From IMG/VR virus record IMGVR_UViG_3300038465_000054, positions 1 to 48,890 of that record: 48,890 nucleotides of DNA, one strand, 5' to 3'. This DNA comes from a virus. Under the pieces are notes generated by a model. It was not told the DNA's origin, searched no databases, and saw nothing but the letters and a program-made list of their open reading frames with translations. Below are positions 24,139-48,890 of the stretch, piece after piece (position 1 is the stretch's first letter; each line of letters starts with the position of its first letter). The position numbers were made by a program, and so were the translations under genes.

Positions 24139-24139
24139 C

Positions 24140-24487
24140 ATGATCAAGCGACTACTTATTGCGATCGCCTTTGCCGTCCTGGCAGCGCCCGCATTCGCAT
24201 CGGTCCTCTACATCGACGAATACGCGCAGGGCAGTTCGCCAATCTATCCGGCTGCGACCGCGCCGCCGGTCACTTCACAAACTGTCGCCATCAGCGGGAG
24301 TGCTGCCAGTAGCGCGGCATTCAGCGCGACCACGCGACTGATCCGCATCACGTGCGATGTGATCTGTTCGTTCCTGATCGGGACAAGTCCGACGGCCACG
24401 ACCAGCAGCGCCAGATTGTGTGCTGGCTGCGTGGAATATTTCATTGTGGTCCCTGGGCAAAAGATATCGGTGATCACAAATTCATGA
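24140..24487 (+). CDS. Small exported protein beside fibre genes
   Basis: A 115-residue product starting MIKRLLIAIAFAVLAAPAFA, a textbook Sec signal peptide with an AFA cleavage site. GAGG precedes the ATG. The mature part is Ser/Thr/Ala-rich with a Cys pattern (ITCDVICSF, RLCAGCVEYF) that could form disulfides in the periplasm. An exported protein inside a virion-fibre module is unexpected. The stop overlaps the next start (ATGA). Confidence 0.65.
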   Translation: MIKRLLIAIAFAVLAAPAFASVLYIDEYAQGSSPIYPAATAPPVTSQTVAISGSAASSAAFSATTRLIRITCDVICSFLIGTSPTATTSSARLCAGCVEYFIVVPGQKISVITNS

Positions 24488-24645
24488 TTCCGCTGGTCAT
24501 GCTGCTTGGATTCATTGCCAATACGGGCACTCTGATGAATCATTCGGTGCCTGCTTCTGGCGCTTCACAGACCAGTAATATCACGACGCTATCCAGTATT
24601 AACATCACGACGCTAAGCGGAACGCCGCTAAGGACCATCCAGTGA
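24484..24645 (+). CDS. Small protein with ITTLS repeats
   Basis: A 53-residue product starting MIPLVMLLGFIANTGTLMNH, with a hydrophobic N-terminus that may be a signal or anchor. Its C-terminus repeats the motif ITTLS (SNITTLSSINITTLSG). It overlaps both neighbours by 4 bp. The C-terminal motif resembles the 'LTTLGGLDITTLGG' tail of the gp25-like protein at 46197-46676. Function unknown. Confidence 0.55.
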   Translation: MIPLVMLLGFIANTGTLMNHSVPASGASQTSNITTLSSINITTLSGTPLRTIQ

Positions 24646-33961: not shown

Positions 33962-35050
33962 ATGAACGAAGTGATGGCATTCGACAGCGGAAAACTTGCC
34001 GCAGCCGTGCGCGCAGGATTCGGCCGTGCGCTGATTGAAGAACTTGCATCCGAACGGTACGGGATCAAGTTCGCCCCCGAGCTCGGCCAGATGGACTGGT
34101 TCAAGCCCGCTCTTCCGATGAACAACTTCAAGATGGCCATGGACGTGCAAAGCGAGTTGGTCACTGTCAGCAACTCTGGCATCCCTTCCTATCTGGCCAA
34201 CTTCCTTGATCCGCGCCCCATCATGATTTTGGTCTCGCCCCTGAAGGCCGCCATCATCGCAGGCGAGCGCGGGATCGGTGACTGGCTGACAGAATCGGCG
34301 CAGTTCATCACGGTGGAGCAGACGGGCGAGACGGCCAGCTATGGCGACTACAGCCAGAATGGGCAGTCGAACGTGAATGCCAACTTCCCCTCGCGCCAGA
34401 ACTACCTGTTCCAGGCGTTCCTGCAATACGGGGACTTTGAACTGGGCCGCGCAGGGCTTGCGAAACTGGATTGGGCTGCCCAGCAGCAGGCCGCGAATGC
34501 GACCACGCTGATGAAGCAGCTGAACAACGTCTATTTCTTCGGCGTCGGCAATCTTCAGAACTATGGTCTGATCAATGCCCCCACGCTGCCGCCCAGCATC
34601 ACGGCCGCTTACGCCTGGCTGACAAGCCCCACCGCCAATGCGAACACGATCTATCAGGACATTCTGCGCATGTGGATTCAGATGCAGGCGCAGACCGGCG
34701 GCGTGGTCGAGAACGATGCCAAGATCGTGCTGGCCATGTCCAACGAACAGGCCGGCGCCCTGAAGTCGATCACGCAGTACAACACGAACAGTGTTGAACA
34801 GCTGCTGAAGCAGAACTTCCCCAATATCCGCATCGAAACGGCCGTGCAGTACGCCACGGCTTCGGGCCAGCTGGTGCAGATGATCGTCGAGGATCTGGAA
34901 GGCCAGAAGACCGTCGAAGTCGCCTTCAGCTCCAAACTGATGGCGCACTCGATGGTGCGAGATACATCCAGCGTCAAACAGAAGCGCTCCGCCGGCGGCT
35001 TTGGCGCCTGGTGGGCAAGGCCGTTCTTGCAAGTAAGCATGATTGCCTGA
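33962..35050 (+). CDS. Major capsid protein (DUF2184-like)
   Basis: A 362-residue protein starting MNEVMAFDSGKLAAAVRAGF with GAGGAA upstream. Sequence blocks such as ASERYGIKFAPELGQMDWFK, FVGV-type VYFFGVGNLQNYGLINAPTL, MWIQMQAQTGGVVENDAKIV and MAHSMVRDTSSVKQKRSAGG fit the DUF2184 capsid family with HK97-like fold. Its position after the DUF2213 protease and between two paralogous decoration-like genes supports the call. No large N-terminal delta domain is seen, so scaffolding is probably supplied by the upstream protein. Confidence 0.88.
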   Translation: MNEVMAFDSGKLAAAVRAGFGRALIEELASERYGIKFAPELGQMDWFKPALPMNNFKMAMDVQSELVTVSNSGIPSYLANFLDPRPIMILVSPLKAAIIAGERGIGDWLTESAQFITVEQTGETASYGDYSQNGQSNVNANFPSRQNYLFQAFLQYGDFELGRAGLAKLDWAAQQQAANATTLMKQLNNVYFFGVGNLQNYGLINAPTLPPSITAAYAWLTSPTANANTIYQDILRMWIQMQAQTGGVVENDAKIVLAMSNEQAGALKSITQYNTNSVEQLLKQNFPNIRIETAVQYATASGQLVQMIVEDLEGQKTVEVAFSSKLMAHSMVRDTSSVKQKRSAGGFGAWWARPFLQVSMIA

Positions 35051-35063
35051 CACCGGAGGGGCC

Positions 35064-35546
35064 GTGCTTTCACAATTCGGCCCCCCTCCGCGCTTTGGCT
35101 TGGGCTATCGCGCGAATTGGAATCCCATCGCCTGCGCGCCTTGCGGCGCGCAGGAAATGACCGCAGCGCCTGGCGGCGTGATCCTGGGCCGCTTCGGCTG
35201 GGCGGATCCCAACAATGGCCAAGTCTCCAATCTCTACACGCCTGGCGCCCGTCTGGGCTGGGTCTGCCCGACGCGCGGAACATGGGGCCGTGTGTACTGG
35301 AACGGCTTCGCCTGGGTTCTGCGGCAGGGCCTGGGCTGCGTGCTCGCGCTCATCGGGGATTTTCACGCCCGCTTCTGCAACGGATCGACGGTGGGCCAGG
35401 CCGTCTACGCGGATTCGATCACCGGCCAGCCCTACAGCGGCAATGTCACCGGATCAGCGATCTTGACGCCCTGGACCGTCGTGACGCAGGCTTACGCTGG
35501 CGATTGGGCGATCATCAGCACGATGACGCCCCCGCTCACAACCTAA
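35064..35546 (+). CDS. Decoration-like protein, paralogue of the gene upstream of the capsid
   Basis: A 160-residue protein starting at GTG with GGAGGGG just upstream (a TTG 21 bp earlier lacks a binding site). GGVILGRFGWADPNNGQVSN, ARLGWVCPTRGTW and NGSTVGQAVYADSITGQPYS correspond to segments of the protein at 32965-33927. It lacks that protein's C-terminal repeats. It is rich in Gly, Trp and Pro. Likely a virion surface or connector-associated protein. Confidence 0.7.
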   Translation: MLSQFGPPPRFGLGYRANWNPIACAPCGAQEMTAAPGGVILGRFGWADPNNGQVSNLYTPGARLGWVCPTRGTWGRVYWNGFAWVLRQGLGCVLALIGDFHARFCNGSTVGQAVYADSITGQPYSGNVTGSAILTPWTVVTQAYAGDWAIISTMTPPLTT

Positions 35547-35555
35547 GAGGCACAT

Positions 35556-35963
35556 ATGGCAATGGTAAAAGTAGGCTGCAAACTCACGCACGGCTTCATT
35601 ATGGAAATCGTGACGCAAGGGCCCATGAATCTGCCGGCGCCAGCGGGCGAGCGCGTGGAAATCAAGGGCGCCAATTCATTGCTTGTGGATGGCATGGGGC
35701 GCCAGATCACGGATGGCTTCGCGTTCACGGATGTGCCTGAAGAACTGGCCAAAGAGTGGTTCCGCGTCAATGCCAACACGAAGATGGTCAAAAACGGCTT
35801 CGTGATCATGCAATCGGACAAGAAGTCGATCGAAGCGCAGGCCAAGGAACACGTGGCCGAACGCACGGGCCTGGAAGCGCTGAATCCGGATCGCGATCCG
35901 CGCTCGCCCAAGAATGTGAAGCCGTACACCAAGAACGACAAGCCCGAAAGCGCCGCAGCCTGA
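35556..35963 (+). CDS. Head-module hypothetical protein (135 aa)
   Basis: Starts MAMVKVGCKLTHGFIMEIVT with AGAGG upstream. The front half is a beta-rich domain (GPMNLPAPAGERVEIKGANS, GMGRQITDGFAFTDVPEELA) and the end is highly charged. Similar proteins occur after capsid genes in several phage groups as unnamed structural or assembly genes. It overlaps the next start (TGATG). Confidence 0.65.
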   Translation: MAMVKVGCKLTHGFIMEIVTQGPMNLPAPAGERVEIKGANSLLVDGMGRQITDGFAFTDVPEELAKEWFRVNANTKMVKNGFVIMQSDKKSIEAQAKEHVAERTGLEALNPDRDPRSPKNVKPYTKNDKPESAAA

Positions 35964-36436
35964 TGGGCAACGCCGCGCCCGTCGTATTCGATCCGGTCGC
36001 CTTCATAGGGGCGTTCCCATCGTTTACCTCGGTGCCGGCGCTCATGCTCCAGTTCAATTTCGATCTGGCCTGCCTTCAGCTGGATAACACGCCGAACAGC
36101 CCGGTCTGGAATCAGAACACGCGCCAGATGCTGCTGTGGCTGCTGACGGCGCATTTAACGGCGCTGCTCAATGGCGTGAACGGCGAGCCCCCGCCTGGCA
36201 TGGTCGGACGCCTCGCGAACGCCGCAGAAGGATCCGTCAGCGCAGCGACCGTGTGGGATGCGCAGACTTCCAGCCAGCTGGTCGCGAGCCTCCAGCAAAC
36301 GCAATGGGGCGTGCAGTATCTGGCCGCCACGGCGAGCCTCACGGGCGCGCGCTACATGCCAGCGCCCTGCCAGCCCAATGGCGGCGTCACGGGCCCGTTC
36401 TTTTTCGTCCAGCCGCCTGGGCCCTGGTGTGGCTAA
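35963..36436 (+). CDS. Head-tail connector (DUF4054-like)
   Basis: A 157-residue protein starting MGNAAPVVFDPVAFIGAFPS by TGATG overlap. The opening F-P--F pattern, QLDNTPNSPVWNQNTRQMLL and LLTAHLTALLNGVNG followed by a helix resembling adaptor proteins fit DUF4054, a connector seen in myo- and siphophages. It would sit below the portal ring. The C-terminus is Pro/Gly-rich (FVQPPGPWCG). Confidence 0.7.
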   Translation: MGNAAPVVFDPVAFIGAFPSFTSVPALMLQFNFDLACLQLDNTPNSPVWNQNTRQMLLWLLTAHLTALLNGVNGEPPPGMVGRLANAAEGSVSAATVWDAQTSSQLVASLQQTQWGVQYLAATASLTGARYMPAPCQPNGGVTGPFFFVQPPGPWCG

Positions 36437-37045
36437 ATGGCTATCGTCAGCGCCACGCTCACGGGCGGCGACAAACTGATTGCCCATCTGAAGGGCACAG
36501 CTGAGCGGCTGGCCACGGGCCGATCGGTCGCGGTCGGCTTTATCGACAAAGCCACTTATCCGCCAGACCGGCAGGAGCGCTTCGAGCGGCGCCTGGCCAA
36601 GTATCAGCGCAGCGCCGATCGGGCTTTGCGTACCGCCCAGAGCCCTCCCAAGCCCGGCCAGGGCAACCTGCGGCGCGTGAAGGTCTATAAGAGGGTAGGC
36701 CCGCACGCGCCATCCAAGCTGCTCTATGTGGCTCAGGTGGCCTTCTGGAACGAGTTCGGGACTGTGCGGGCGCCCCCGCGGCCGTTCTTCCGGGGCATGA
36801 TCGAGCGCCAATCCCCAAGCTGGGGCCCTTTGATGGCCCGGCGCCTGAAGGCAAACCGCTTCGATGCCGCCCGCACGCTCGATCAGATGGGCAGCACGAT
36901 CAACGATCAGCTGCGCCAGTCGATCGTCGATCTGACCAGCCCTCCCAATGCGCCCTTCACGATCATGATGAAAGGCGGGGCATCAAAGCCGTTGGTGGAT
37001 AGCGGCCAAATGCTCAATTCCACCAGCTGGAAGGTGGACGCCTGA
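36437..37045 (+). CDS. Tail completion/HK97 gp10-like protein
   Basis: A 202-residue protein starting MAIVSATLTGGDKLIAHLKG directly after the previous stop. The core VAFWNEFGTVRAPPRPFFRG and the C-terminal LVDSGQMLNSTSWKVDA match the 'NEFGT--iP-RPF--' and 'DTG-L--S' patterns of HK97 gp10-type neck or tail-completion proteins. It would join head and tail. An insertion with many Arg/Lys residues (about 48-85) is longer than usual. Confidence 0.75.
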   Translation: MAIVSATLTGGDKLIAHLKGTAERLATGRSVAVGFIDKATYPPDRQERFERRLAKYQRSADRALRTAQSPPKPGQGNLRRVKVYKRVGPHAPSKLLYVAQVAFWNEFGTVRAPPRPFFRGMIERQSPSWGPLMARRLKANRFDAARTLDQMGSTINDQLRQSIVDLTSPPNAPFTIMMKGGASKPLVDSGQMLNSTSWKVDA

Positions 37046-37431
37046 TGGATCTGCATTCGATGGTCGCACGCGGCATCGGCGCAGTGAATCCGCTGATCCA
37101 GGCCGTCTATCTGAAAAGCGCCGGGGCTGCGCCCACGAACGAGGATGGCTCCCAGCTGCCGACCTATTGGGCCCCCGAGGCGCTAACGGTCGATGTACAG
37201 GCGGCCAGCGGCCAGGATCTTCAGCACGTCGACAATCTGAATATGCAGGGCGTGTACCGCAAGATCTACCTGCGCGGCAACGCCCAGGGAATCGTGCGCA
37301 CGGATATGAAGGGCGGGGATCTGTTCTATTTCCCCCAGGTCAAGGGCGGCGCGCTGTGTCGCTGGCTGGTCGCTTCGGTCCCCGAGACCTGGAGTGACTG
37401 GAGTTGCGTTATCGTGTGTCTGCAACTATGA
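37045..37431 (+). CDS. Head-tail or tail completion protein (128 aa)
   Basis: Starts MDLHSMVARGIGAVNPLIQA by TGATG overlap. Pattern YLKSAGAAPTNEDGSQLPTY, GVYRKIYLRGNAQGIVRTDM and WLVASVPETWSDWSCVIV resembles small neck/tail genes found beside gp10-like proteins in myophages. The C-terminus is coupled to the next gene (ATGA). Confidence 0.65.
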   Translation: MDLHSMVARGIGAVNPLIQAVYLKSAGAAPTNEDGSQLPTYWAPEALTVDVQAASGQDLQHVDNLNMQGVYRKIYLRGNAQGIVRTDMKGGDLFYFPQVKGGALCRWLVASVPETWSDWSCVIVCLQL

Positions 37432-38009
37432 GCACTACCGTAACCCCCACGCGCTCGGATGTGATGAAGGCCCTGCGCGCTTTCATTCAATCGCTGGTGG
37501 GCACGAATATCGAAGTGATCGAAGGCTTGGGCAATCGCGTGGCGATGCCGCGCGCTGCGACTACGCCCGGCGGCGTGCCAGGCCCCAAGGGCTTCATCGT
37601 GCTGACGTGGATCCTGCAAAACACGCTTTCCACGAATCTGGACAGCTACGCCGATCCGTTCCCCTCCAATGGCAACGGCAAGACGGTAAGTGTGGATCTA
37701 GCGGTGACAGTCCAGTGCGATTGCTACGGCCAGCAGTCGGCCAATTGGGCCACGATCATCGCGACGATCATGCAGGATCAGTATGCATCCGATCAGCTGC
37801 TGCCCGTGTGCGCACCGCTGTATGCCGATGCGCCGCAGATGGCCGCGCTGATCGATGAGGAACAGCAGTACTTGGAGCGATGGACGTTCGGGCTGCATAT
37901 CAACTACAACCCGCAGATCACTTTCGTGCAGGACTTCGCCACGGATCTGGCCCCCGGCGTGTTCAACGTCGAAGTAACATTTCCCGTCGATGCGCCGCCG
38001 ATACTGTGA
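37428..38009 (+). CDS. Tail terminator-type protein (LIC_12616-like)
   Basis: A 193-residue protein starting MSTTVTPTRSDVMKALRAFI. IVLTWILQNTLSTNLDSYAD, VTVQCDCYGQQSANWATIIA and LHINYNPQITFVQDFATDLA fit the LIC_12616 family found before tail sheath genes in myophages. Likely at the tail-neck end. It starts by ATGA overlap. The gap to the sheath gene (38010-38078) may hold a promoter but I see only a weak TATTAT. Confidence 0.7.
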   Translation: MSTTVTPTRSDVMKALRAFIQSLVGTNIEVIEGLGNRVAMPRAATTPGGVPGPKGFIVLTWILQNTLSTNLDSYADPFPSNGNGKTVSVDLAVTVQCDCYGQQSANWATIIATIMQDQYASDQLLPVCAPLYADAPQMAALIDEEQQYLERWTFGLHINYNPQITFVQDFATDLAPGVFNVEVTFPVDAPPIL

Positions 38010-38078
38010 TTTTTTACCCAGCAGCGTTGCCCGTGTATTATCGCCCTAGTCCGGCCGTCCGCCTGCGGAGCTTTTAAG

Positions 38079-39569
38079 ATGACGAATAGCATTCCAGCAT
38101 CCCAATTCATGGCGGTCTATCCCGGCGTCCTGAGCGCCGGCGGCAATGCGCTAAGCCTCAACTCGGTGTGGCTGGATGAAGATACAAGCATCCCGATCGG
38201 CACCGTTAATGGCTTCCCCAGCCTCGCGGCCGTCGAGGACTGGTACGGCCCCGCTTCAAATCAAGCCTTCCTTGCGAGCAACTACTTTGGCGGCTTCGTC
38301 AATTGCCAGTCGCTCCCCTCGATGCTCTGGCTCGTCCAGTACAACGCCAGCGCCGTCGCAGCCTATGTGCGCGGCGGCTCCGTCGCGGCGCTCACCCTGG
38401 CCGAACTTCAGGCGTTCAATGCCGCCCTTACCGTTACCGTGAACGGGACGCCCTACACGACGGCCAGTATTAACCTGGCTGCGGCGACCAGCTTCAGCAA
38501 TGCGGCGACGATCATATCGGCCGCACTAACGACTGCCAGCGCCCCGGCCGCGTGCACTTACGATGCGCTGCGCGATGCGTTTGTGATCACTTCAAACACG
38601 ACCGGCACGGGCAGCACGATCAGCTTTGGCAGCGGCGGATTGGGCACGGATCTGAATCTGACGCAGGCGCTGGGCGCCGTGCTTTCGCAGGGCGCCGCCG
38701 CGGCTACGCCTGCCGGGACAATGGCCGGCGTCACCGCAGCGCTTCAGAACTTCGCCAGCTTCATGACCACGTTCCAGCCGGCCACTTCTGTCATGCAGGC
38801 GCTTGCCGAGTGGAATGCAGCACAGAATGATGCCTACGCTTATGTGCCCTGGGATTCTAACGTGCTGATCACTGAATCCCCCCCGCAGCCGACGATCCTC
38901 GCGCAGCTGATTGCAGGCATCGATGGCACGGCGCCGCAGTACGATGCGACGGGCGCGATCGCCGCGTTCATCTGCGGCGTGATTGCCTCGATCAACTTCC
39001 AGCAGAAGAAGGGCTATCTGACCTTCGCCAATATCAGAAGCCCACTGCTTACCCCGAACGTGTCCAATCAGACCGTGTACGACAACGTGATCGCCAACGG
39101 CTACAGCTGTTATGCGGCGATCGCCACTGCCAACCAGAACTTCGAGTGGTACGAAAACGGACAGGTCAGCGGCGCATGGGACTGGCTCGATGAGTACGTA
39201 TTCCAGATCTGGCTGACCAATCAGCTACAGCTTGCCGGCATGGAACTGCTGCAAGATGTGCCCTCGATCCCCTTCAATCTGTCCGGCGCTGAACTGATCG
39301 CATCGGCCTACGCCGGGCCAATCAGCGCGGGCGTAAACTTCGGTGGCATACAGGCGGGCGTGCCGCTTACCGCCTCGCAGGAACTGGCGATCACCAACGC
39401 CGTGGGCGCAGCCGCTGTAACGGCACTGTTCAATCAGGGCTGGTATCTGTCGGTCCCGATCCCCTCCGGCAACGTGCAAAGCACGCGCGGCCCGTGGCCC
39501 GCGACTCTTTTTTACGTCAATGCCGGTGGTGTTCAAAGCCTTGAACTCGCCTCGATCGACGTGCAGTGA
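38079..39569 (+). CDS. Contractile tail sheath protein (DUF3383-like)
   Basis: A 496-residue protein starting MTNSIPASQFMAVYPGVLSA with GGAG upstream. Hallmarks are NGFPSLAAVEDWYGPASNQA, LVQYNASAVAAYVRGGSV, then YLTFANIRSPLLTPNVSNQT and WYENGQVSGAWDWLDEYVFQ, as in DUF3383 sheaths of small myophages. It forms the contractile layer around the tube. The insertion rich in Thr/Ala/Gly (about 115-215) is an outward domain. It is followed by the tube gene. Confidence 0.85.
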   Translation: MTNSIPASQFMAVYPGVLSAGGNALSLNSVWLDEDTSIPIGTVNGFPSLAAVEDWYGPASNQAFLASNYFGGFVNCQSLPSMLWLVQYNASAVAAYVRGGSVAALTLAELQAFNAALTVTVNGTPYTTASINLAAATSFSNAATIISAALTTASAPAACTYDALRDAFVITSNTTGTGSTISFGSGGLGTDLNLTQALGAVLSQGAAAATPAGTMAGVTAALQNFASFMTTFQPATSVMQALAEWNAAQNDAYAYVPWDSNVLITESPPQPTILAQLIAGIDGTAPQYDATGAIAAFICGVIASINFQQKKGYLTFANIRSPLLTPNVSNQTVYDNVIANGYSCYAAIATANQNFEWYENGQVSGAWDWLDEYVFQIWLTNQLQLAGMELLQDVPSIPFNLSGAELIASAYAGPISAGVNFGGIQAGVPLTASQELAITNAVGAAAVTALFNQGWYLSVPIPSGNVQSTRGPWPATLFYVNAGGVQSLELASIDVQ

Positions 39570-39577
39570 GATAACCC

Positions 39578-40009
39578 ATGCTTACCTCTGAAAACAGCAT
39601 CATCACGATCAGCGTTCAGGAAGTGTTCGGTGGCACGCCGCAGCAGCTTTCCAACTTCGCGACCGACGATATGTATGACGCCCCCGAAGTGAAGCCGGGC
39701 GAGGCGGTCATGGGCACCGATGGCATTCTGACGGCCGCCGCGCTTCCGGTGCCGATTGAATTTCGCTTCATGCTGATGGCCGATAGTCCATCGATCACGA
39801 ACATCATGGAGCCGTGGTTCGGGCAGGAGCAGCAGCAGAAAGCCAAATACGTCGCCACAGTCGCCCTGCTGATCCCGCAGCTGAACAAGCGCTATTCAGG
39901 CAGCGGGTTCCTTACCAGCTACAAGCCCGCGCCCAAGGCCGGCAAGTTCCTGAGCGCTGCGATGGAATACGGGCTGACGCTGCAATCCTTCCTGCCCAGC
40001 CCGATGTAG
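39578..40009 (+). CDS. Tail tube protein (DUF3277-like)
   Basis: A 143-residue protein starting MLTSENSIITISVQEVFGGT. KPGEAVMGTDGILTAAALPV and PIEFRFMLMADSPSITNIME fit tube proteins of the KPP10/DUF3277 type, and it directly follows the sheath. It would polymerise as hexamers to make the inner tube. Size is usual for the family. Confidence 0.78.
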   Translation: MLTSENSIITISVQEVFGGTPQQLSNFATDDMYDAPEVKPGEAVMGTDGILTAAALPVPIEFRFMLMADSPSITNIMEPWFGQEQQQKAKYVATVALLIPQLNKRYSGSGFLTSYKPAPKAGKFLSAAMEYGLTLQSFLPSPM

Positions 40010-40012
40010 CCC

Positions 40013-40480
40013 GTGACACGCAAGCGCGAGGAAATCACGATCACGGAAGCCGATCGCGATCACGGGAAAACCTTCGTTCTAAACGAGATGCCATCCTTTC
40101 AGGCCGAGCTCTGGGCTGGCAAAGCACTGCACATGATCCTGCGCGCCGGGCGCGAACTGCCCCCTGGCGCTGCCGGCGCAGGTGTTGCGGGACTCGCCGC
40201 TACATTCGGGGCTGCCAATGGCGTGCTATCGGAACTTGAGGAACTACATTTCATTTTGCAGCATCCTGATCTTTCAGAGGTATTAGGATGCATCAAGTTC
40301 AAGAATCCTGCCGGCATCGAAATGCCGATCACTTTCGATGTGAATTGCCAGATCGATGAAATCCGCACATGGAAGCGCCTGCGCTTCAGGCTGCTGACAC
40401 TTCACACGGGTTTTTCTATGCCCGTAGAATCCCAAACTACGGGCTTGAAATCTTCGCAAAGCGAAGCCCCAAGCACCTAG
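40013..40480 (+). CDS. Tail-assembly chaperone, short form (G-like)
   Basis: A 155-residue protein starting at GTG (MTRKREEITITEADRDHGKT). The region FVLNEMPSFQAELWAGKALH to EELHFILQHPDL fits chaperones encoded between tube and tape measure genes. A canonical slippery heptamer, GGGTTTT, lies at 40408-40414 in the correct phase, 5 nt before a perfect 8-bp stem, so part of the ribosomes should shift -1 and make a longer 209-residue protein. The zero-frame C-terminus after residue 134 is Ser/Gln-rich and looks unstructured. Confidence 0.82.
   Translation: MTRKREEITITEADRDHGKTFVLNEMPSFQAELWAGKALHMILRAGRELPPGAAGAGVAGLAATFGAANGVLSELEELHFILQHPDLSEVLGCIKFKNPAGIEMPITFDVNCQIDEIRTWKRLRFRLLTLHTGFSMPVESQTTGLKSSQSEAPST
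40408..40444 (+). promoter_or_regulatory. Programmed -1 frameshift signal
   Basis: Slippery site G-GGT-TTT (40408-40414) in the X-XXY-YYZ phase of the chaperone frame. A 5-nt spacer follows, then stem GCCCGTAG (40420-40427) pairing perfectly with CTACGGGC (40437-40444) around a 9-nt loop. The same arrangement drives the G-GT frameshift in lambda-type tails. Confidence 0.9.
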
Positions 40481-40641
40481 ACTATGTGAACGTTCCCCGC
40501 ATCATCGCGGATCTGGTCACATCCAAGATTTGCACTCTCCATGAGTTGCAGACAATCTACTCCGCAGAGGACGCCTATAACCTCCTGGAGATCCTGAACG
40601 TGAATGCCGCCAACGCGATCCGGAGCAAGCCAGATGGCTGA
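40414..40641 (+). CDS. Frameshift extension of the tail-assembly chaperone (T-like)
   Basis: After slippage at 40408-40414 the ribosome reads TTC TAT GCC onward for 75 codons (FYARRIPNYGLEIFAKRSPK ... ending IRSKPDG), giving a 209-residue G-T fusion with residues 1-134 of the short form. The frame contains an ATG at 40369 without a ribosome binding site, so independent initiation is unlikely. The segment LVTSKICTLHELQTIYSAED is the helical T domain that would contact the tape measure. The stop lies 8 bp into the tape measure gene. Confidence 0.8.
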   Translation, partial: FYARRIPNYGLEIFAKRSPKHLDYVNVPRIIADLVTSKICTLHELQTIYSAEDAYNLLEILNVNAANAIRSKPDG

Positions 40642-42037
40642 GGGCACCGTAGTCGATGCTCTTTTAATGACGCTTGGCCTTGATGATAAGGACTTCAAGC
40701 GCGGGCAGGAGGAAACGACAAAGCGCACAAAAGAGATGCGCAATGTCACCAAGTCTGCCAGCGAGGACATGGCCAAAAGCCTTGCGCAAGTGGCTAAGCA
40801 ATTCACGCTCGGCGCCCTGGGCGTCGGCAGCATGGTCGAAGCGGTTCGCACCTTCGCGCGAGTGGTCGGGCAGAATGACCAGCTGGGGCTGCTGGCGAAC
40901 AATCTGGGCGTTAACGTAACGCAGCTGAACGCTTTGGGAAATGCAGCGGAAACGGCCGGCGGAAAGTCTGCCGATATTAACTCGGCCCTTGCGCTGATCA
41001 ATAAAGAAGCGACGCAGCTGCGAAATTTCGGGCCCGATGCATTCTCCAATCTGTTCCGCCTGGCGCGCTTCGATCCGCTGGACCCCCTGACGCATCAGCC
41101 TAAAAATCCCGTGGAAGGCTTTAAGGCCATTGGTGATTTCTTCAGGGACTTTGAGGCGAAGAACGGGCGCATTGCCGCGCTTAATGTCGCGGAGCAGTTC
41201 GGATTTACCGAAGGCGCTTTCCGTATATTGGAGCAGGGCACGACAGGGATCGATGCGCTGATTAAAGCCGAGGAAAGGCTCGGGGCAGAAACGAAAAAAG
41301 ATGCCGATGCCGCGCGCGAACTGGATGCGGCATGGACGCAGCTTGGACACACTTTCGCGCAAAGGGGGCGCGATATCACAACGACCGCTGCGCCGGCGCT
41401 TAACTGGTTTCTAAGGGGCCTCACAGATGCGGTCGGCGGAACAACAGGCGGACAGCTTGGGAATGATCTCTACGACCTGTTCCACAACGGCGGATACAAT
41501 CCCAATGCGCCGGGCGTGGCCCACGGAAAGATCAATCGCGGCGGCACCGTGTCGGATCGCAACAACAATCCGGGGAACCTGAAGCCTAGCGGCTTCTCTT
41601 ATCCTGGGCAGACCGGAGTGGACGCTAACGGCTTCGCCATCTTTGCCACGCCGGAGGCCGGACGCGCGGCGCTTCAGGGGGATCTTCGCGCCAAGTTCAA
41701 CCGCGGCGATAACACGATCAGCAGCCTGATCACGGACTACGAAGGCCACGATTTCAAGCACAACGACATAGGCGCATACATCGCAGCCGTCTCGCAGCAG
41801 ACGGGCCTGGGCGCGAATCAGCCTTTCAGCGCCGATCGGCTCGAGCAGATCTCGCGCGCGATCACGCGGCAGGAGGGCACCAGCGGATTCGGTGGCACGA
41901 ATAATACGCATTCGGTCGATATCGGAACGATCGTCATTAACACGCAGGCGACCGATGCGGCGGGAATAGCGGCTGACATGAACAATCAGCTACAGCGCAA
42001 AAAGACTCTGGCGCTGGCGGATGGGAGCTCAAGCTGA
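40634..42037 (+). CDS. Short tape measure protein with lytic-transglycosylase-like domain
   Basis: A 467-residue protein starting MAEGTVVDALLMTLGLDDKD with GGAG 8 nt upstream. Residues about 1-110 are a tape-measure N-terminus with helices (KRGQEETTKRTKEMRNVTKS, MVEAVRTFARVVGQNDQLGL). A C-terminal domain from about 305 has DRNNNPGNLKPSGFSYPGQT and FAIFATPEAGRAALQGDL, the NNPGNL signature of structural muramidase-like proteins that open peptidoglycan at infection. The protein is short, predicting a short tail. The end (about 430-467) has HSVDIGTIVINTQATDAAGI. Confidence 0.82.
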   Translation: MAEGTVVDALLMTLGLDDKDFKRGQEETTKRTKEMRNVTKSASEDMAKSLAQVAKQFTLGALGVGSMVEAVRTFARVVGQNDQLGLLANNLGVNVTQLNALGNAAETAGGKSADINSALALINKEATQLRNFGPDAFSNLFRLARFDPLDPLTHQPKNPVEGFKAIGDFFRDFEAKNGRIAALNVAEQFGFTEGAFRILEQGTTGIDALIKAEERLGAETKKDADAARELDAAWTQLGHTFAQRGRDITTTAAPALNWFLRGLTDAVGGTTGGQLGNDLYDLFHNGGYNPNAPGVAHGKINRGGTVSDRNNNPGNLKPSGFSYPGQTGVDANGFAIFATPEAGRAALQGDLRAKFNRGDNTISSLITDYEGHDFKHNDIGAYIAAVSQQTGLGANQPFSADRLEQISRAITRQEGTSGFGGTNNTHSVDIGTIVINTQATDAAGIAADMNNQLQRKKTLALADGSSS

Positions 42038-42705
42038 TGCCCATCCCCAATCTGTTCCCCAATGTCCCGAATGTGCCTGGCGCGCCGCAGATCCCGCGCA
42101 GCCCCGATGCGCCCACATCGACAACGCCTGCGCTAGCGGATGATTCAACGCAATCGGTACTTGCAAGTTCCGCTAACGGATCCCCGTTGTGGGGCGTATT
42201 CGATTCCTCCGGGAATCTTGCGATCAATGCCGATTCTGTGCGCAACTTCGACTGGCGACAGGAATATAGAATCGGGAACTATCCGGTGCAGCAAGGAAGT
42301 TTTGCCAGTTACGACAAAGTGACGGTGCCTTACGAATGCGCCGTGCGCGTCGTGTGCACGGGCGATATTGATTATCGGTCGGACTTTGTTTCTCAGGTTC
42401 AGGGCGTGATAGCTTCGCTGGATCTCTATACCATCATCACCCCAGAGGAAAGCTATCAGAACTGCAATGTGACGCGCGGCGAATTGTCACGCCATGAGCG
42501 CAACGGCGCTTATGTCATTGTCTACGATCTTTTCTTTCAGCAGATCATTCAGGTGACAGGCCAATATGCGGCCACGGCCAACACGGCGAACGCGCAGCAG
42601 CCGACTGCCCAGGGCGTCGTTAATAACGGGCAGGTCAATGCGACGACGCCCACGCCTGCGGCCCAGAACGCGGCCACTTCGGCTCTAAACCAGCAGACTC
42701 AATAA
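42037..42705 (+). CDS. Baseplate/tail-tip protein (Dit-like or LysM-less connector)
   Basis: A 222-residue protein starting MPIPNLFPNVPNVPGAPQIP by TGATG overlap. The central part (SVRNFDWRQEYRIGNYPVQQ, GSFASYDKVTVPYECAVRVV, YTIITPEESYQNCNVTRGEL) matches tail-to-baseplate proteins in Pam3/KPP10-like myophages, with an N-terminal Pro-rich and C-terminal Ala/Gln/Asn-rich tail. It probably ends the tube and binds the hub. Exact equivalence is inferred from gene order. Confidence 0.65.
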   Translation: MPIPNLFPNVPNVPGAPQIPRSPDAPTSTTPALADDSTQSVLASSANGSPLWGVFDSSGNLAINADSVRNFDWRQEYRIGNYPVQQGSFASYDKVTVPYECAVRVVCTGDIDYRSDFVSQVQGVIASLDLYTIITPEESYQNCNVTRGELSRHERNGAYVIVYDLFFQQIIQVTGQYAATANTANAQQPTAQGVVNNGQVNATTPTPAAQNAATSALNQQTQ

Positions 42706-44612
42706 TGCTTGGCGTCCCCTTAAGCCCGGTCCCCTCCCAGACGCTGCAAGTAGTGCTCGACGGCCAGAATGTGCAGCTGTCGGTCTATCAGTTGCCGACA
42801 AAAACATATCTTCCTGGCGCTGGCTACGTGGGCGATGCGCCGCTGTTCATGGATGTCAGCTTAGGCGGCGTTGCTGTGGCGACCTGTCGCAGCTGCCTGA
42901 ATGGCGTGCGCGTGCTGCTGGATGAGCAGTACAGCGATTTCGTCGGCGATTTCGTGATCGTCGATACCCAGGGCGACACCGATCCGGTCTATACGGGGCT
43001 AGGGACTCGATACCAGCTGGTGTACATGGAGGCCAGTGATCTGGGGGAAAGCTCCACCGGCACGGTGATTACACCGACGCCGCCCGCGCCTTTGCCGCCG
43101 ACGAATCCTGCGATCTACTATCCCGTAACACCCGCCGAGCTTGCCGCTGGCGTGACGCCTCTCAATTATGGATACAGCGCTGGAAACGTAGTGAGGTACG
43201 GGGCTGACCCGACGGGCTTTAACGACAGTACCGTCGCTTTTGCTGCTGCTATCGCGGTAGCCTCTCAAAATCTTGGCCCGATGGTCTGGATCCCTGCCGG
43301 TCAGTTCAATATCAGTTCGACGCTAAACATCGCCTCGGGTAAGCAGGTCAACATACAGGGCGCAGGAAAATTCCTCTCTATCCTGTACGGCACTGGATTT
43401 GGCAGCGATGTTCCTGTCATTAGCTATAACGGCACGGGAGCAGGAAGCGCCTCGATTGATTCCATTGGCTGTAGAGGGTTCGCCATCTGGTCGAACAACA
43501 ATCTTGCCAGAGGAATCACGGCAAGCTGGACCACTAACAGCGCTTTTGATGATCTGTACTTCTATGATTGCTACAACGGATGGGTGGGATACACCGCCTT
43601 TGGCAATAAGTTCCGCAACAACAATGCCTACAACATCACTAACGCAAGCTACATCCTAAGCACTTATGCGGGCGCTAATGCGGGCTGCTCGAACTCCTTG
43701 TTTGAGGGGGTCCGAATGGTGGGCAATGTGGGATGCGCCGTTAATACCGCGACTGATTCTCTCGCCTTCATCGGGTGCGATATCGAAGGCATCATAGGAA
43801 ACGGAGCGGGATTAGCCCTGGTTCCCCCTACCGGGTGCGTCGTCTCCAACGTCGTCGTGATGGGATCTCATATCGAGAACATCAACGGGACTGCGATTTA
43901 CTGTGCCGGTGTCGATGCGAATTCTGTCACCGGGTTAGTCGTCAAGGGAAACATTATCAAAGGCGGCTTTGGAGACTCAGCCAATCCTTATGCGGTCAAT
44001 GCGATCCAGCTGTATCACGTGAACGGATTCGACATCTCTGGTAATAACTTCATTGATTGGGGAACCGATGATGCGACGGGGGGCGGCACACAAGGATACG
44101 CCTGCTACTACATGTCCACCGCATCGAACGGAGTCATAGAAAACAATACCTCGGCGCAATCCACCATCGGCGGCACGGTTAAACGAACCGTCCAGAATCT
44201 GTGCGATGTTCTGCCGGCAGCTTCGGTGCGCATAGCTAACAACTGGGCTCCAGTGAACGGCACCGGGTATCTGGGTTACACGGTTAACTACACAAACTCC
44301 AATGAAGTCACCTTACCGTACTCGTCTACGATTGCCGTAGATGCATCGACAGGGGGCTTGTTTGATATCACGGCTACCAATAACACCGGCTTTACGATCA
44401 GCAATCCAACGAACGGATTCAAGGGCAAGACCATCACTTTCAAGATCCGCAATACCTCGGGAGGAGCGCTAGGGGCCGTGACCTGGATGAGCAGCTTCAA
44501 GATGTCAACATGGACCAGCCCGGCCAACGCTTATAGCCGCTCTGTCACGTTTTGCTTTGACGGTACTTATTGGATTCAGATATCACAGACGGGCGTGGAT
44601 GTGCCTAACTAA
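42705..44612 (+). CDS. Baseplate plug domain fused to a beta-helix tailspike
   Basis: A 635-residue protein. Residues 1-~115 match the baseplate plug (Pam3 gp18 type): SQTLQVVLDGQNVQLSVYQL, RSCLNGVRVLLDEQYSDFVG and FVIVDTQGDTDPVYTGLGTR. That protein is normally a stand-alone ~110-residue domain. A Pro/Thr linker (TGTVITPTPPAPLPPTNP) leads to a pectate-lyase-3-like right-handed beta helix (VRYGADPTGFNDSTVAFAAA, WIPAGQFNISSTLN, repeated N-rich turns) and a C-terminal beta region. The DNA from about 43180 looks less GC-rich than its neighbours. It may be a receptor-binding depolymerase tethered through the plug. Confidence 0.82.
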   Translation: MLGVPLSPVPSQTLQVVLDGQNVQLSVYQLPTKTYLPGAGYVGDAPLFMDVSLGGVAVATCRSCLNGVRVLLDEQYSDFVGDFVIVDTQGDTDPVYTGLGTRYQLVYMEASDLGESSTGTVITPTPPAPLPPTNPAIYYPVTPAELAAGVTPLNYGYSAGNVVRYGADPTGFNDSTVAFAAAIAVASQNLGPMVWIPAGQFNISSTLNIASGKQVNIQGAGKFLSILYGTGFGSDVPVISYNGTGAGSASIDSIGCRGFAIWSNNNLARGITASWTTNSAFDDLYFYDCYNGWVGYTAFGNKFRNNNAYNITNASYILSTYAGANAGCSNSLFEGVRMVGNVGCAVNTATDSLAFIGCDIEGIIGNGAGLALVPPTGCVVSNVVVMGSHIENINGTAIYCAGVDANSVTGLVVKGNIIKGGFGDSANPYAVNAIQLYHVNGFDISGNNFIDWGTDDATGGGTQGYACYYMSTASNGVIENNTSAQSTIGGTVKRTVQNLCDVLPAASVRIANNWAPVNGTGYLGYTVNYTNSNEVTLPYSSTIAVDASTGGLFDITATNNTGFTISNPTNGFKGKTITFKIRNTSGGALGAVTWMSSFKMSTWTSPANAYSRSVTFCFDGTYWIQISQTGVDVPN

Positions 44613-45553
44613 TGGCAGCATCCAGCTTTCAGCAAAAACTTCTGCGAACGACGTTCATCCTCTCGAACAACGCCGTGTTCAACGGCGCCAATAATCAGCT
44701 ACAGATCGTAGGGCTTCGAACGCTGGCCACCATTCGGGCATCGGGCGCGGGAATCGCGCCGCAAGCGACGATCCAGATCTACGGCATGAAGCAGTCGGAT
44801 ATGAACGCGCTGACCATGCTGGCGTGGCAAGCGCTCACTATCGAGCGCAACACCGTGATTCTGGAAGCCAGCAGCGATGGCGGCCAAAGCTGGAATGCAG
44901 TCTTTCAGGGCCAGATCACGACCAGCGGGCCGGACTATACGGCCATGCCTGATGTGTGCCTGCGCGTGGAAGCGACCACGCTCTATTACGAACTGCTGAC
45001 CCCTGGCGAGCCGCTTGCCTATACCGGCGTTACATCGGTCGCCAGCGCGGTCGCCAAGCTGGCGCAGGGCATCAATTATGGATTCCAGAACAACGGCGTG
45101 ACGGCGACCTTGCAGAATCCCTATATCCCAGGATCCAGCATTTCGCAGATGAAAACGCTGTGCGATCAGGCCGGCGTCGACTTTTATATCGATCCGCAAG
45201 GCGGCCCGAACGGCAAGGGGCTGATTGCGATCACCAACAAAGGACAGCCACGCACGGGCGCGCTTATTCCAACGCTAACGCCGCAGTCGGGCATGGAATC
45301 CTATCCGACGCTTGAGTTCTGGGGCTTCACCGTGCGATCCCTGTATAACCCAGCCTATGTGTTTGGCGGCCAGATCATCGTTAAGGGCAGCGATGTGCTG
45401 GGGCCGAGCGGTACGCCCTATGCGCTGGGCGCTAACGGCACGTGGTGGATCTACAAAATCACTCACACGCTTGAATCTATCAAACTGAATGGCACCTGGA
45501 AGTCAGAACTTGGATGTACTTCGTTTCAGACCCAGGTGATTGCAACGCCATGA
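44612..45553 (+). CDS. Baseplate hub protein
   Basis: A 313-residue protein starting MAASSFQQKLLRTTFILSNN at a TAATG overlap. ATIRASGAGIAPQATIQIYG, QTFKG-type GWNAVFQGQITTSGPDY, LRVEATTLYYELLTPGEPLA and LCDQAGVDFYIDPQ fit the hub (gpD/T4 gp27-like) of small contractile tails. It would hold the spike trimer and continue the tube. It overlaps the spike gene start (ATGA). Confidence 0.78.
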   Translation: MAASSFQQKLLRTTFILSNNAVFNGANNQLQIVGLRTLATIRASGAGIAPQATIQIYGMKQSDMNALTMLAWQALTIERNTVILEASSDGGQSWNAVFQGQITTSGPDYTAMPDVCLRVEATTLYYELLTPGEPLAYTGVTSVASAVAKLAQGINYGFQNNGVTATLQNPYIPGSSISQMKTLCDQAGVDFYIDPQGGPNGKGLIAITNKGQPRTGALIPTLTPQSGMESYPTLEFWGFTVRSLYNPAYVFGGQIIVKGSDVLGPSGTPYALGANGTWWIYKITHTLESIKLNGTWKSELGCTSFQTQVIATP

Positions 45554-46200
45554 GCAGCGTGTACACACAGCAGGATGTTCAAAGCGGCGCATCCGACTAC
45601 GCCACGACGCAATTTCTGATCAATCAGGCGATCAGGAAGATTCCAGGCTCCCTGCCCGTGCAAGTTATCTCCTGCACTAATAGCGGCGGCGTCGCAGGCT
45701 TCGGCTTCGTGAACGTCAAGCCGCTGATCCAGCAGATGGACGGTAATTTTCAGATCGTCCCCAATGGCGTCGGCACGATCTATCAGCTGCCCTACGTGCG
45801 AATCCAGGGCGGCGTGAACGCCATCATTCTGGATCCAGTCGCTGGCGATATTGGCCTGGCTGTGTTCTGTTCGCGCGATATTTCGCTGGTGAAGCAAAGC
45901 CGCGTGCTATCGGCCCCAGGATCGCGGCGCATTAACGATTGGGCTGATGGCGTTTATATCGGCGGCATCCTGAATTTGGCGCCTACCAACTACCTCGCCT
46001 TCACGCAAAACGGGATTGTGCTTCTGTCGACGCAAAAGGTTACGATTCAGGCACCTACCGTGGCAATTCAAGGGAACCTGACCGTGAGCGGAACGACAAT
46101 CGGGCAAGGTGATGGCACATTCGCTGGCATCGACGTGCAGGAGCACACGCACAGTGGCGTCGAAAGCGGCGGCGATAACACGGGGCCGCCAGTGCCATGA
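45550..46200 (+). CDS. Baseplate spike protein (Gp138/gpV-like)
   Basis: A 216-residue protein starting MSSVYTQQDVQSGASDYATT. It has an OB-like N-terminal domain (LPVQVISCTNSGGVAGFGFV, NVKPLIQQMDGNFQIVPNG) as in Gp138. A beta-helical stem follows (IVLLSTQKVTIQAPTVAIQG) and a tip EHTHSGVESGGDNTGPP, whose HxH is the metal-binding apex seen in membrane-piercing spikes. The gene overlaps its neighbours by ATGA. Confidence 0.85.
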   Translation: MSSVYTQQDVQSGASDYATTQFLINQAIRKIPGSLPVQVISCTNSGGVAGFGFVNVKPLIQQMDGNFQIVPNGVGTIYQLPYVRIQGGVNAIILDPVAGDIGLAVFCSRDISLVKQSRVLSAPGSRRINDWADGVYIGGILNLAPTNYLAFTQNGIVLLSTQKVTIQAPTVAIQGNLTVSGTTIGQGDGTFAGIDVQEHTHSGVESGGDNTGPPVP

Positions 46201-46676
46201 GCGGGCCATTCTCCACGCTTTGCCTTGATGTGAGCACATGGGATCTGATCGCGGACGCTTCCGGGAATGTCGCCGTAGCCAATCCGCCCTATGCCGTCGC
46301 TCAAGATGTGGCCTCGGCCCTAAAAACATTCTTCGGCGAAGTCTGGTACGACGATACGATCGGCGTGCCGTATCTGACGACCATTCTGGGGCGCGTTCCG
46401 CCCTTGAGCGTATTCAAGCAGCAGATGGTAAGCGCTGCTTTGACAGTCCCCAGCGTTGTCAGCGCGGTGTGCACCATCCAGAATTATTCGCGCGTGACGC
46501 GGCTGGTTATAGGACAAGTGCAGTTCACAACCCAGAATGGCACTGTCGGCACTGTCGGCATCGGCTCGCCAGTGCCCGCTGGCATATCCAATCCGGGCAC
46601 TGGCGATACGCTGACGACGTTAGGCGGCTTAGATATTACGACATTAGGCGGCCAGAACATCGAGGCGATTCAATGA
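46197..46676 (+). CDS. Baseplate wedge protein (gp25/W-like)
   Basis: A 159-residue protein starting MSGPFSTLCLDVSTWDLIAD. NPPYAVAQDVASALKTFFGE through IPYL-type GVPYLTTILGRVPPLSVFKQ and VSAVCTIQNYSRVTRLVIG match the gp25-like family linking wedge and sheath. The last ~40 residues are a Gly/Thr repeat tail (TVGTVGIGSPVPAGIS, TLTTLGGLDITTLGG) not usual in gp25, which resembles the repeat in the 53-residue protein at 24484. Confidence 0.82.
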   Translation: MSGPFSTLCLDVSTWDLIADASGNVAVANPPYAVAQDVASALKTFFGEVWYDDTIGVPYLTTILGRVPPLSVFKQQMVSAALTVPSVVSAVCTIQNYSRVTRLVIGQVQFTTQNGTVGTVGIGSPVPAGISNPGTGDTLTTLGGLDITTLGGQNIEAIQ

Positions 46677-47887
46677 CAACAACCGCGGTTCCGCAGATTG
46701 AATTCACGTCGACGGGCCTTGTTGTTCCCTCAGAGCCTGCGGTGCTGGCAGGCTGTCAGGCCGATTGGAACAGTGCCTTCGGCGGGATCCTTAATCCGGC
46801 GCTTAATACGCCGCAGGGACAGCTGGCCTCGAGCGAATCGGCGCTCATCGCGAATAACAATGCGCTGTTCGCGCAGATGATCAACCTGATAAACCCGGCG
46901 ACCAGCAGCGGCTTTATGCAGGATGCGATTGCGCAGATCTATTTCCTGACGCGCAATCCTGCGCTCCCCACGATCGTGCAGTGTACGTGCGCGGGCCTTG
47001 ATGGCACGGTGATCCCCATCGGGGCGCTGGCTACGGACACCAGCGGCAATCTTTACGTATCGCAATCGGCAGGAACGATCAGTTCCGGCACCGTAGTGCT
47101 GCCCTTCGCCAATGTGGTCGACGGGCCAATCGCGTGCCCGGCTGCCACGCTGACAAACATCTATCAGGGCATCAATGGATGGGAATCGATCACCAACGTA
47201 GCCGCTGGTGTGATCGGCCAGAATGTTGAGACGCCACAGGCTTTCGAATATCGGCGCCAGCAGTCGGTCGCACTGAACTCGCACGGCCCTGTGCAGGCGA
47301 TCTACGGCGTCGTATTTGCTTTGCCGGGCATAACCGATGCCTACTGCGCCGAAAATGTCCTGGCCAGCACTGTCGATGTGGGCTCGACGAACTATCCAAT
47401 GGTGCAGCATTCCATTTACGTCAGCGTCTATGGCAGCGCGACTTCGGCCGCTGTAGCCCAGGCGATCTATAGCAAAAAAGGCCCAGGCTGTAATTACAAC
47501 GGCGACACGACCGTGGCTGTCACGGACACCAGCGGATATGAAGTGCCCTATCCGACCTATAACGTGAGCTTCCACTGGCTGACGAACACGCCGATCCTGT
47601 TTGCGGTAGATATCGCTAACAACGCATCGCTCCCCTCCAACATCGTCGGCCTTGTGCAGGCCGCGATCATCAATGCCTTCACGGGCGGCGATGGCGGGAC
47701 GCGCGCGCGCGCTGGCGCACTTCTGTCAGCGGGGCGCTTCTATGCCGGCGTCATGGCGACAAGTCCCTTTGTGTCGGTCAATTCCATATTGCTTGGCAGC
47801 GCGAGCGCGACACTGACCAGCCAGCTGATCGGGATCGATCAGGAACCCACGATCACGGCCGCCAACATCGTGGTCAATCTGGTATGA
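46673..47887 (+). CDS. Baseplate J-like protein
   Basis: A 404-residue protein starting MTTTAVPQIEFTSTGLVVPS by ATGA overlap. The pattern STGLVVPSEPAVLAGCQADW, TPQGQLASSESALIANNNAL, FMQDAIAQIYFLTRNPALPT and EYRRQQSVALNSHGPVQAIY is that of gpJ-type wedge proteins. It joins hub and fibre network, and its C-terminal half forms the trifurcation contacts. Length is normal for small myophages. Confidence 0.88.
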   Translation: MTTTAVPQIEFTSTGLVVPSEPAVLAGCQADWNSAFGGILNPALNTPQGQLASSESALIANNNALFAQMINLINPATSSGFMQDAIAQIYFLTRNPALPTIVQCTCAGLDGTVIPIGALATDTSGNLYVSQSAGTISSGTVVLPFANVVDGPIACPAATLTNIYQGINGWESITNVAAGVIGQNVETPQAFEYRRQQSVALNSHGPVQAIYGVVFALPGITDAYCAENVLASTVDVGSTNYPMVQHSIYVSVYGSATSAAVAQAIYSKKGPGCNYNGDTTVAVTDTSGYEVPYPTYNVSFHWLTNTPILFAVDIANNASLPSNIVGLVQAAIINAFTGGDGGTRARAGALLSAGRFYAGVMATSPFVSVNSILLGSASATLTSQLIGIDQEPTITAANIVVNLV

Positions 47888-48744
47888 GCGTCGCGGTCCC
47901 CAATGTTGTGGGACTGAGCCTGCCGGCGGCTACCACAGCCATGCAGGCTGCTGGCCTGATTGTCAGTGCCGTCCCTACGGCGCCCAGCACGCAGTATGCC
48001 GTAGGCGTGATCGCAAGCCAGGCGCCGCCGGCGGGCACGACCGTAGCCAGTGGCAGCAGCGTGCAGCTGGTCGAATCGATCGGAGCGCCCACGTATCCGG
48101 CGCAGTTCAACTTTGAGCAGACGATCATCAGTCAGTATGCCAACAGCCCGACGCTGATGCAGCTGATCGAGAACATGGAGCAGTATTTCGATCAGTCGGC
48201 AAACTTCGCAGAATTCTACAGCTTTGTGTGGAACGTCAACACCGCGCAGTATTGGGGCCTGGATATCTGGGGCGCCATCGTCGGCGTATCGCGCTATCTG
48301 ACAATCCCGACGGTCGATCCGCCGCTGTATTTTGGTTTCGCTGACGGGGCGGTGCCGGCCGACAATCTGAACTTTAATGCAGGCCCATTCTATAGCGGCT
48401 CCGATGCGACAGAGACCTACGCGCTACCCGATTCGCAGTACCGCACGCTGGTGCTGGCCAAGGCACTGGCGAACATCATCGAGGCCACGATCCCGGCGCT
48501 TAATCAGCTGCTACTGAGTCTGTTTGGCGCATCCGGCCGCTGCTATGTGGGCGATCTGGGGAACATGCAGATGATGTTCACTTTCGAGTTTTTGCTGACG
48601 CCAGTGCAGTATGCGATTATGACTCAGTCGGGCGTCATCCCGCACCCGGCGGGCGTGGAAGCCTTTGTTCAGCAAGTGATTCCGGCAGGAACTTTCGGAT
48701 TCGCGGCAGGATTGCAGAACTTCAACAACGGATCTTTTTTGTGA
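47884..48744 (+). CDS. PASTA domain fused to a DUF2612-type baseplate protein
   Basis: A 286-residue protein starting MSVAVPNVVGLSLPAATTAM. Residues about 4-66 are a PASTA domain (VPNVVGLSLPAATTAMQAAG, GVIASQAPPAGTTVASGSSV). PASTA modules bind cell-wall fragments in bacterial kinases and penicillin-binding proteins. The remainder (YPAQFNFEQTIISQYANSPT, QYWGLDIWGAIVGVSRYLTI, LPDSQYRTLVLAKALANI) is DUF2612, the gpI-like wedge partner encoded after gpJ. The fusion could put a wall-binding or spacer module at the baseplate rim. It overlaps the gpJ gene by ATGA. Confidence 0.82.
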   Translation: MSVAVPNVVGLSLPAATTAMQAAGLIVSAVPTAPSTQYAVGVIASQAPPAGTTVASGSSVQLVESIGAPTYPAQFNFEQTIISQYANSPTLMQLIENMEQYFDQSANFAEFYSFVWNVNTAQYWGLDIWGAIVGVSRYLTIPTVDPPLYFGFADGAVPADNLNFNAGPFYSGSDATETYALPDSQYRTLVLAKALANIIEATIPALNQLLLSLFGASGRCYVGDLGNMQMMFTFEFLLTPVQYAIMTQSGVIPHPAGVEAFVQQVIPAGTFGFAAGLQNFNNGSFL

Positions 48745-48753
48745 GCGTGAATC

Positions 48754-48890
48754 ATGGCCGCACCTAGCCTTCCGCAACTGATCGCGATCCCCTTCGCCAA
48801 TGGCGCGAGCGCTACGACAACGCCTGCGAGCGCAGCGCCAGGCACCAAGACTTATCCATTCCCGTCGGCCTCCCAAATCGGCACCACACC
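48754..48890 (+). CDS. Start of a tail-fibre-type gene, cut by the window end
   Basis: Open reading frame of 45 codons without a stop, starting MAAPSLPQLIAIPFANGASA, with a weak GAGCG upstream. Ala/Thr/Pro-rich sequence (TTTPASAAPGTKTYPFPSAS) fits the N-terminal part of a baseplate-attached fibre, which is expected after the DUF2612 gene. Incomplete, so function cannot be read. Confidence 0.6.
   Translation, partial: MAAPSLPQLIAIPFANGASATTTPASAAPGTKTYPFPSASQIGTT

Follow-up and report, generated by a model that had tools for sequence, protein, structure and literature searches.

The analysed stretch of DNA, a 48,890-base virus record referred to here as the window, encodes a contractile-tail module comprising a sheath protein (phrog_205), a tape measure, a Dit-like protein, a fusion gene, hub, spike, wedge, J and DUF2612 proteins and the beginning of a tail fibre gene. 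The fusion gene joins a baseplate plug domain to a tailspike-like module, and the features of this region are the following:

42037 to 42705, + strand: Dit-like protein (phrog_1830), directly upstream of the fusion gene; its Pfam Dit_like score is slightly under the cut-off
42705 to 44612, + strand: whole fusion gene, an open reading frame of 635 aa
42705 to 43049, + strand: plug or hub-wedge adaptor domain (Pam3 gp18 type), about aa 1-115, from PF22479, phrog_349 and fold matches to 9b45_A, 8env_G and 7yfz_h
42804 to 42845, + strand: extra loop of ~14 residues within the plug domain (around aa 34-47), from alignments; the closest relative (L018) has the same loop length and most others lack the loop
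43050 to 43127, + strand: Ser/Thr/Pro-rich linker, aa 116-141, from the sequence; it begins where stand-alone relatives end
43128 to 44228, + strand: tailspike-like beta-helix module, aa 142-508, opening with the head segment TPAELAAGVTP...RYGA, from PF12708 (aa 161-346), phrog_2234 and a 64% identical module in contig L003
44229 to 44609, + strand: C-terminal domain, aa 509-635, with 87-97% DNA identity to L003 and a match to phrog_18522 (aa 539-628)
44612 to 45553, + strand: baseplate hub of the E217 gp41 type (PF22759, E=1.4e-12; phrog_196, E=1e-46)
45514 to 46200, + strand: central spike with GpV apex motif (PF18946)
46197 to 46676, + strand: baseplate wedge subunit (phrog_120)
46667 to 47887, + strand: baseplate J-like wedge protein (PF04865, phrog_6)
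47884 to 48744, + strand: DUF2612 protein with N-terminal PASTA domain (PF11041, E=2.6e-55; PF03793, E=7.6e-12)
48754 to 48890, + strand: conventional tail fibre gene, start only, cut by the window end; its full length in contig L002 is 370 aa (phrog_12796 tail fiber, E=2e-56)

The fusion gene occupies the usual plug slot between the Dit-like and hub genes, and this slot, ahead of the hub, spike, wedge, J and DUF2612 genes, is common to Edwardsiella, Klebsiella, Acinetobacter and Aeromonas phages. Its start codon shares bases with the upstream Dit-like stop codon (TAATG), and at the 3' end its stop codon likewise overlaps the hub ATG, so that the overlapping gene joints of the operon are unbroken on either side. 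The remaining baseplate genes of the window are ordinary by their profile matches. Elsewhere in the window, at 19310-26459 and upstream of the terminase, there are three large open reading frames (880, 728 and 605 aa). The first has no confident family and in the third a Peptidase_S74 chaperone domain of the tail-fibre type lies close to the C-terminal end; these frames are additional receptor-binding candidates, in an unusual position.

Given that the fusion is unique among the plug genes examined and comes from one phage population, we considered whether plug and tailspike had been joined in the contig only, through an assembly error. A second contig, L002 (24,761 bases), is identical to the window over 34705-48890 and 1-2356, differs from it in length and ends, and contains this fusion as well, 100% identical. 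The shared join is evidence against misassembly, yet it provides no second lineage, since L002 is the same phage and the fusion is consequently known from a single phage population. The first-pass annotation had left room for a stop or frameshift between the two domains, and neither is present in frame: all 635 codons are open, and L002 agrees at every position. Considering also that the overlaps with the flanking baseplate genes are preserved, an assembly chimera is highly improbable. L002 additionally bridges both window ends through 1,363 bases (L002:14187-15549) that contain most of the tail fibre gene and an endolysin gene, which indicates a circular genome map and a record slightly short of complete.

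The identity of the N-terminal domain is supported by profile and fold comparisons. PF22479 (Pam3_gp18) covers residues 2-109 with E=2.4e-14 (54 bits against a cut-off of 24.2; profile positions 2-100 of 101) and phrog_349 matches residues 1-116 with E=7e-19. Using AlphaFold2 with 53 sequences, residues 1-120 were modelled with a pLDDT of 88, and Foldseek comparison of this model with the PDB returned, with probability 1.00, Pa193 gp34 (9b45_A, TM on target length 0.82), E217 gp33 (8env_G, 0.81) and Pam3 gp18 (7yfz_h, 0.81) as the top matches, with further matches to 9ndy, 9cuy (phiTE) and 7kh1 (XM1). Single-sequence PDB searches with the plug or the whole fusion gave no real match. A profile built from 14 plugs recovered Pa193 gp34 (9b45, six chains), E217 gp33 (8env and 8eon, 12 chains over two entries) and Pam3 gp18 (7yfz, six chains), and in addition phi92 gp136 and the 'spacer protein gp019' of phage Bas63 (entry 9ndy). 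The earlier assignment of the first ~115 residues to the Pam3 gp18-type plug is thus borne out, including by the fold prediction that had been proposed as a check.

The plug is a single-copy domain that adjoins the hub gene within a contractile-tail baseplate operon (tail sheath phrog_205). A search at a permissive threshold found no second plug gene in the window or in L002, which makes the fused protein the only one available to act as adaptor. It departs from the typical stand-alone size of ~100-120 residues in having 523 residues after the domain, size not being part of the profile definition. The plug domain presumably binds the hub protein encoded at 44612-45553.

The first-pass annotation placed the plug at the centre of the hub, a location in which a ~500-residue enzyme would be hard to fit. 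The published structures of the family do not agree with this placement. In E217, gp33 is an adaptor present in six copies without mutual contacts; it links the mobile 'nut' of wedges to the cap and is lost upon contraction (PMC10329688). In Pa193, six copies of gp34 decorate the cap, binding the tail hub with a 2:1 interface (PMC11042391), and P1 gp26 is likewise an adaptor outside the central cap that ties the wedges to it (PMC12810830). The E217 and Pa193 papers disagree on the exact contact partner, but both have the adaptor in six copies on the outside of the cap, and the PDB entries of the solved relatives hold six chains per baseplate. A cargo carried by such an adaptor need not fit inside anything, and the apparent paradox falls. 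A hub-centre plug that forces a redesign of the baseplate would be in line with the Pfam name 'plug', but the peripheral six-copy location in the solved structures and the ordinary character of the other baseplate genes in the window make it most implausible, and we rejected that location. Of the two outcomes proposed earlier, surface display is favoured from the solved relatives and is a natural consequence of their architecture, and a changed baseplate design is not needed.

Beyond the linker, PF12708 matches residues 161-346 (E=1e-8, 35.4 bits against a cut-off of 27), phrog_2234 (tail spike) matches the fusion with E=1e-8, and the end of the phrog_18522 tail protein family matches residues 539-628. 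The module opens with the segment TPAELAAGVTPLNYGYSAGNVVRYGA, which we take to be a head segment of the tailspike type, common in tailspikes. These matches, together with the sequence of the linker, corroborate the earlier description of a Pro-rich linker leading into a pectate-lyase-3-like tailspike. Homologues for a better spike model were limited to L003 in the viral contigs and two short weak matches elsewhere, and with two sequences only the AlphaFold model of this part reached a pLDDT of 42. The PDB matches of this low-confidence model were weak (best E=1.2e-3), with CBA120 TSP2 and Det7 on top, and were mostly beta-helix tailspikes and hydrolases. The tailspike part is thus probably a beta-helix and, judged by its sequence, a putative depolymerase. 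The displayed beta-helix could instead bind polysaccharide as a receptor-binding module devoid of depolymerase activity, considering that the general pectate-lyase-fold family is the sole match, with no activity-specific family and no catalytic residues identified. We regard this as unlikely, since the weak fold matches include known glycan-cleaving tailspikes and most characterised phage beta-helix tailspikes with such a fold are enzymes.

The spike differs in composition from its surroundings. Its GC content is 52.9% against a mean of 59.3%, within the lowest 0.4% when compared with window stretches of the same length, and the structural region as a whole has its GC minimum inside the spike. 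The GC at fourfold sites is 0.63 in the spike and 0.73-0.81 in the adjacent genes, in agreement with the earlier impression of an acquired segment. In the viral collection its only close relative is in L003, a contig read as podophage-like from its head-closure Hc3 gene (phrog_578), where a module 64% identical over the beta-helix follows a different N-terminus. This second context, together with the foreign composition, identifies the spike as a movable module. The DNA identity to L003 is 44-71% over the beta-helix and rises to 87-97% over the last ~120 codons, which points to a recent exchange of the C-terminal domain.

To place the fusion among its relatives, plug genes were collected from phages (tblastn), viral contigs and genome contigs, giving 137 distinct domain sequences when closed and open reading frames are taken together. 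The 523 residues after the plug domain occur in 4 of 202 closed frames, all copies of this phage, and the other 198, many of them near-identical and from few genera so that the sample is narrower than the count, have 0-37. In the prophage plugs retrieved by searching whole genomes, the domain is followed by 23 residues at most. No other plug-tailspike fusion was found in the phages (tblastn), the viral contigs, the genome contigs or the 398 and 399 whole genomes searched. A frame of 308 codons with a weak, sub-cut-off plug match in one genome was discarded, as no enzyme follows the domain. On these sequence comparisons, the plug-mounted tailspike appears to be a rare and novel means of attaching such a module to a phage.

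The closest plug relative (L018) has a 53% identical plug and the same gene order. Its plug ends a few residues past the position where the linker starts in the fusion and runs straight into its own hub gene, implying that the tailspike was joined at the C-terminal end of the plug and that the hub gene was left undisturbed. The plugs of Bcep43 and phiXaf18 have short C-terminal tails of 30-37 residues, showing that this end can carry additional sequence. In these two phages (L007 and L012) the plug gene is preceded by a wedge gene, not a Dit-like one, and tail-fibre-type genes come next.

The long Ser/Thr/Pro linker, of a kind accessible to proteases, raises the question of whether the product is a precursor, in which cleavage of the linker or an internal restart of translation would leave a plain plug in the virion and free the enzyme as a soluble depolymerase. 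Such a product would solve the stoichiometry of six adaptors and three-chain spikes, and the RcGTA tailspike TspA is a precedent for detachable tailspikes (PMC13420450). Against it, none of the in-frame starts near the linker has a good ribosome-binding site, by which an internal start for a free spike was rejected, and no known cleavage signal was seen. A search for programmed frameshifting found no slippery heptamer within the linker or close to it, and this route was also discarded; the stop in the -1 frame at 43037 is likely there by chance. Overall, a precursor seems improbable.

We favour, with a probability of roughly 0.7, an intact fusion that displays an acquired tailspike, probably a polysaccharide depolymerase, in six external copies on the sole plug/adaptor, with possible shedding. 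According to this proposal, a small contractile-tailed phage would have gained a horizontally acquired tailspike by in-frame fusion to the C-terminal end of the one plug/adaptor gene that it has. The domain would retain its structural job, six copies being bound around the outer surface of the trimeric hub and tying the wedges to it. From each copy a Pro-rich tether of ~26 residues would hold a beta-helix module, either an enzyme or a receptor-binding domain, and the modules would surround the hub-wedge interface alongside the conventional fibres. Once displayed, they may cleave surface polysaccharide or attach to it, ahead of adsorption or while it proceeds, and the enzyme might be shed together with the adaptor on tail firing, by analogy with E217 gp33. 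Since the E217 adaptor is lost on contraction, we can speculate further that the spikes would act as single-use enzymes, the shedding of all six adaptors at sheath contraction coupling firing to depolymerase release at the cell surface, although this remains a doubtful extension built on the analogy. Six adaptors and presumably trimeric spikes have no obvious match, so the virion would require either two trimers or a rearrangement of subunits; if the spikes are trimeric like other tailspikes, two trimers per virion would be the simplest solution.

The fusion plug shares the PF22479 family and the fold of Pam3 gp18, E217 gp33 and Pa193 gp34, and its slot ahead of the hub gene is that of the syntenic phages; its likeness to P1 gp26 is drawn from the literature alone. 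The Pam3, E217 and Pa193 proteins are stand-alone, with ~100-110 residues and without a catalytic or receptor-binding domain, in contrast to the fusion with its tailspike. Tailspikes are known to swap between phages on dedicated anchors. The beta-helix tailspikes of P22, Sf6, CBA120 (TSP2) and Det7 resemble the fusion in their pectate-lyase-like repeat module, a fold weakly supported here, as well as in the head segment and in the exchange of domains between phages; they have dedicated N-terminal anchors, whereas the anchor of the fusion is a structural baseplate adaptor. Two reports on the evolved Dit proteins of siphophages describe a structural ring protein that gained carbohydrate-binding modules (PMC10688798, PMC7291167). 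The principle is the same, a structural baseplate protein gaining a surface-displayed saccharide-directed domain, with the difference that the carrier is Dit, in siphophages of Gram-positive bacteria, and the cargo consists of binding modules, while the fusion has a whole tailspike on the plug. RcGTA TspA, a baseplate-borne depolymerase able to detach, offers a functional analogy for possible shedding; it differs in having a beta-sandwich N-terminus unrelated to the plug and in being encoded by a separate gene of a gene transfer agent (Rhodobacter). As far as tested, neither evolved Dit nor TspA is homologous to the fusion in its anchor.

The DUF2612-type protein of the closest relative (L021:9724-11850) is 708 aa in length; an extended, repetitive N-terminal stretch and PASTA-like repeats, recognised by eye, precede its DUF2612-like end. 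The window counterpart has one PASTA domain. This phage clade seems to hang additional modules on various baseplate proteins.

A conserved structural adaptor, present in six copies in solved baseplates, appears to have been turned into a tailspike anchor. If this is true, the hub-wedge adaptor would give simple myophage baseplates a new site at which receptor-binding or enzymatic domains can be attached, the C-terminus of the plug would be shown able to carry cargo, and a symmetry question would be posed by six anchors and trimeric spikes.
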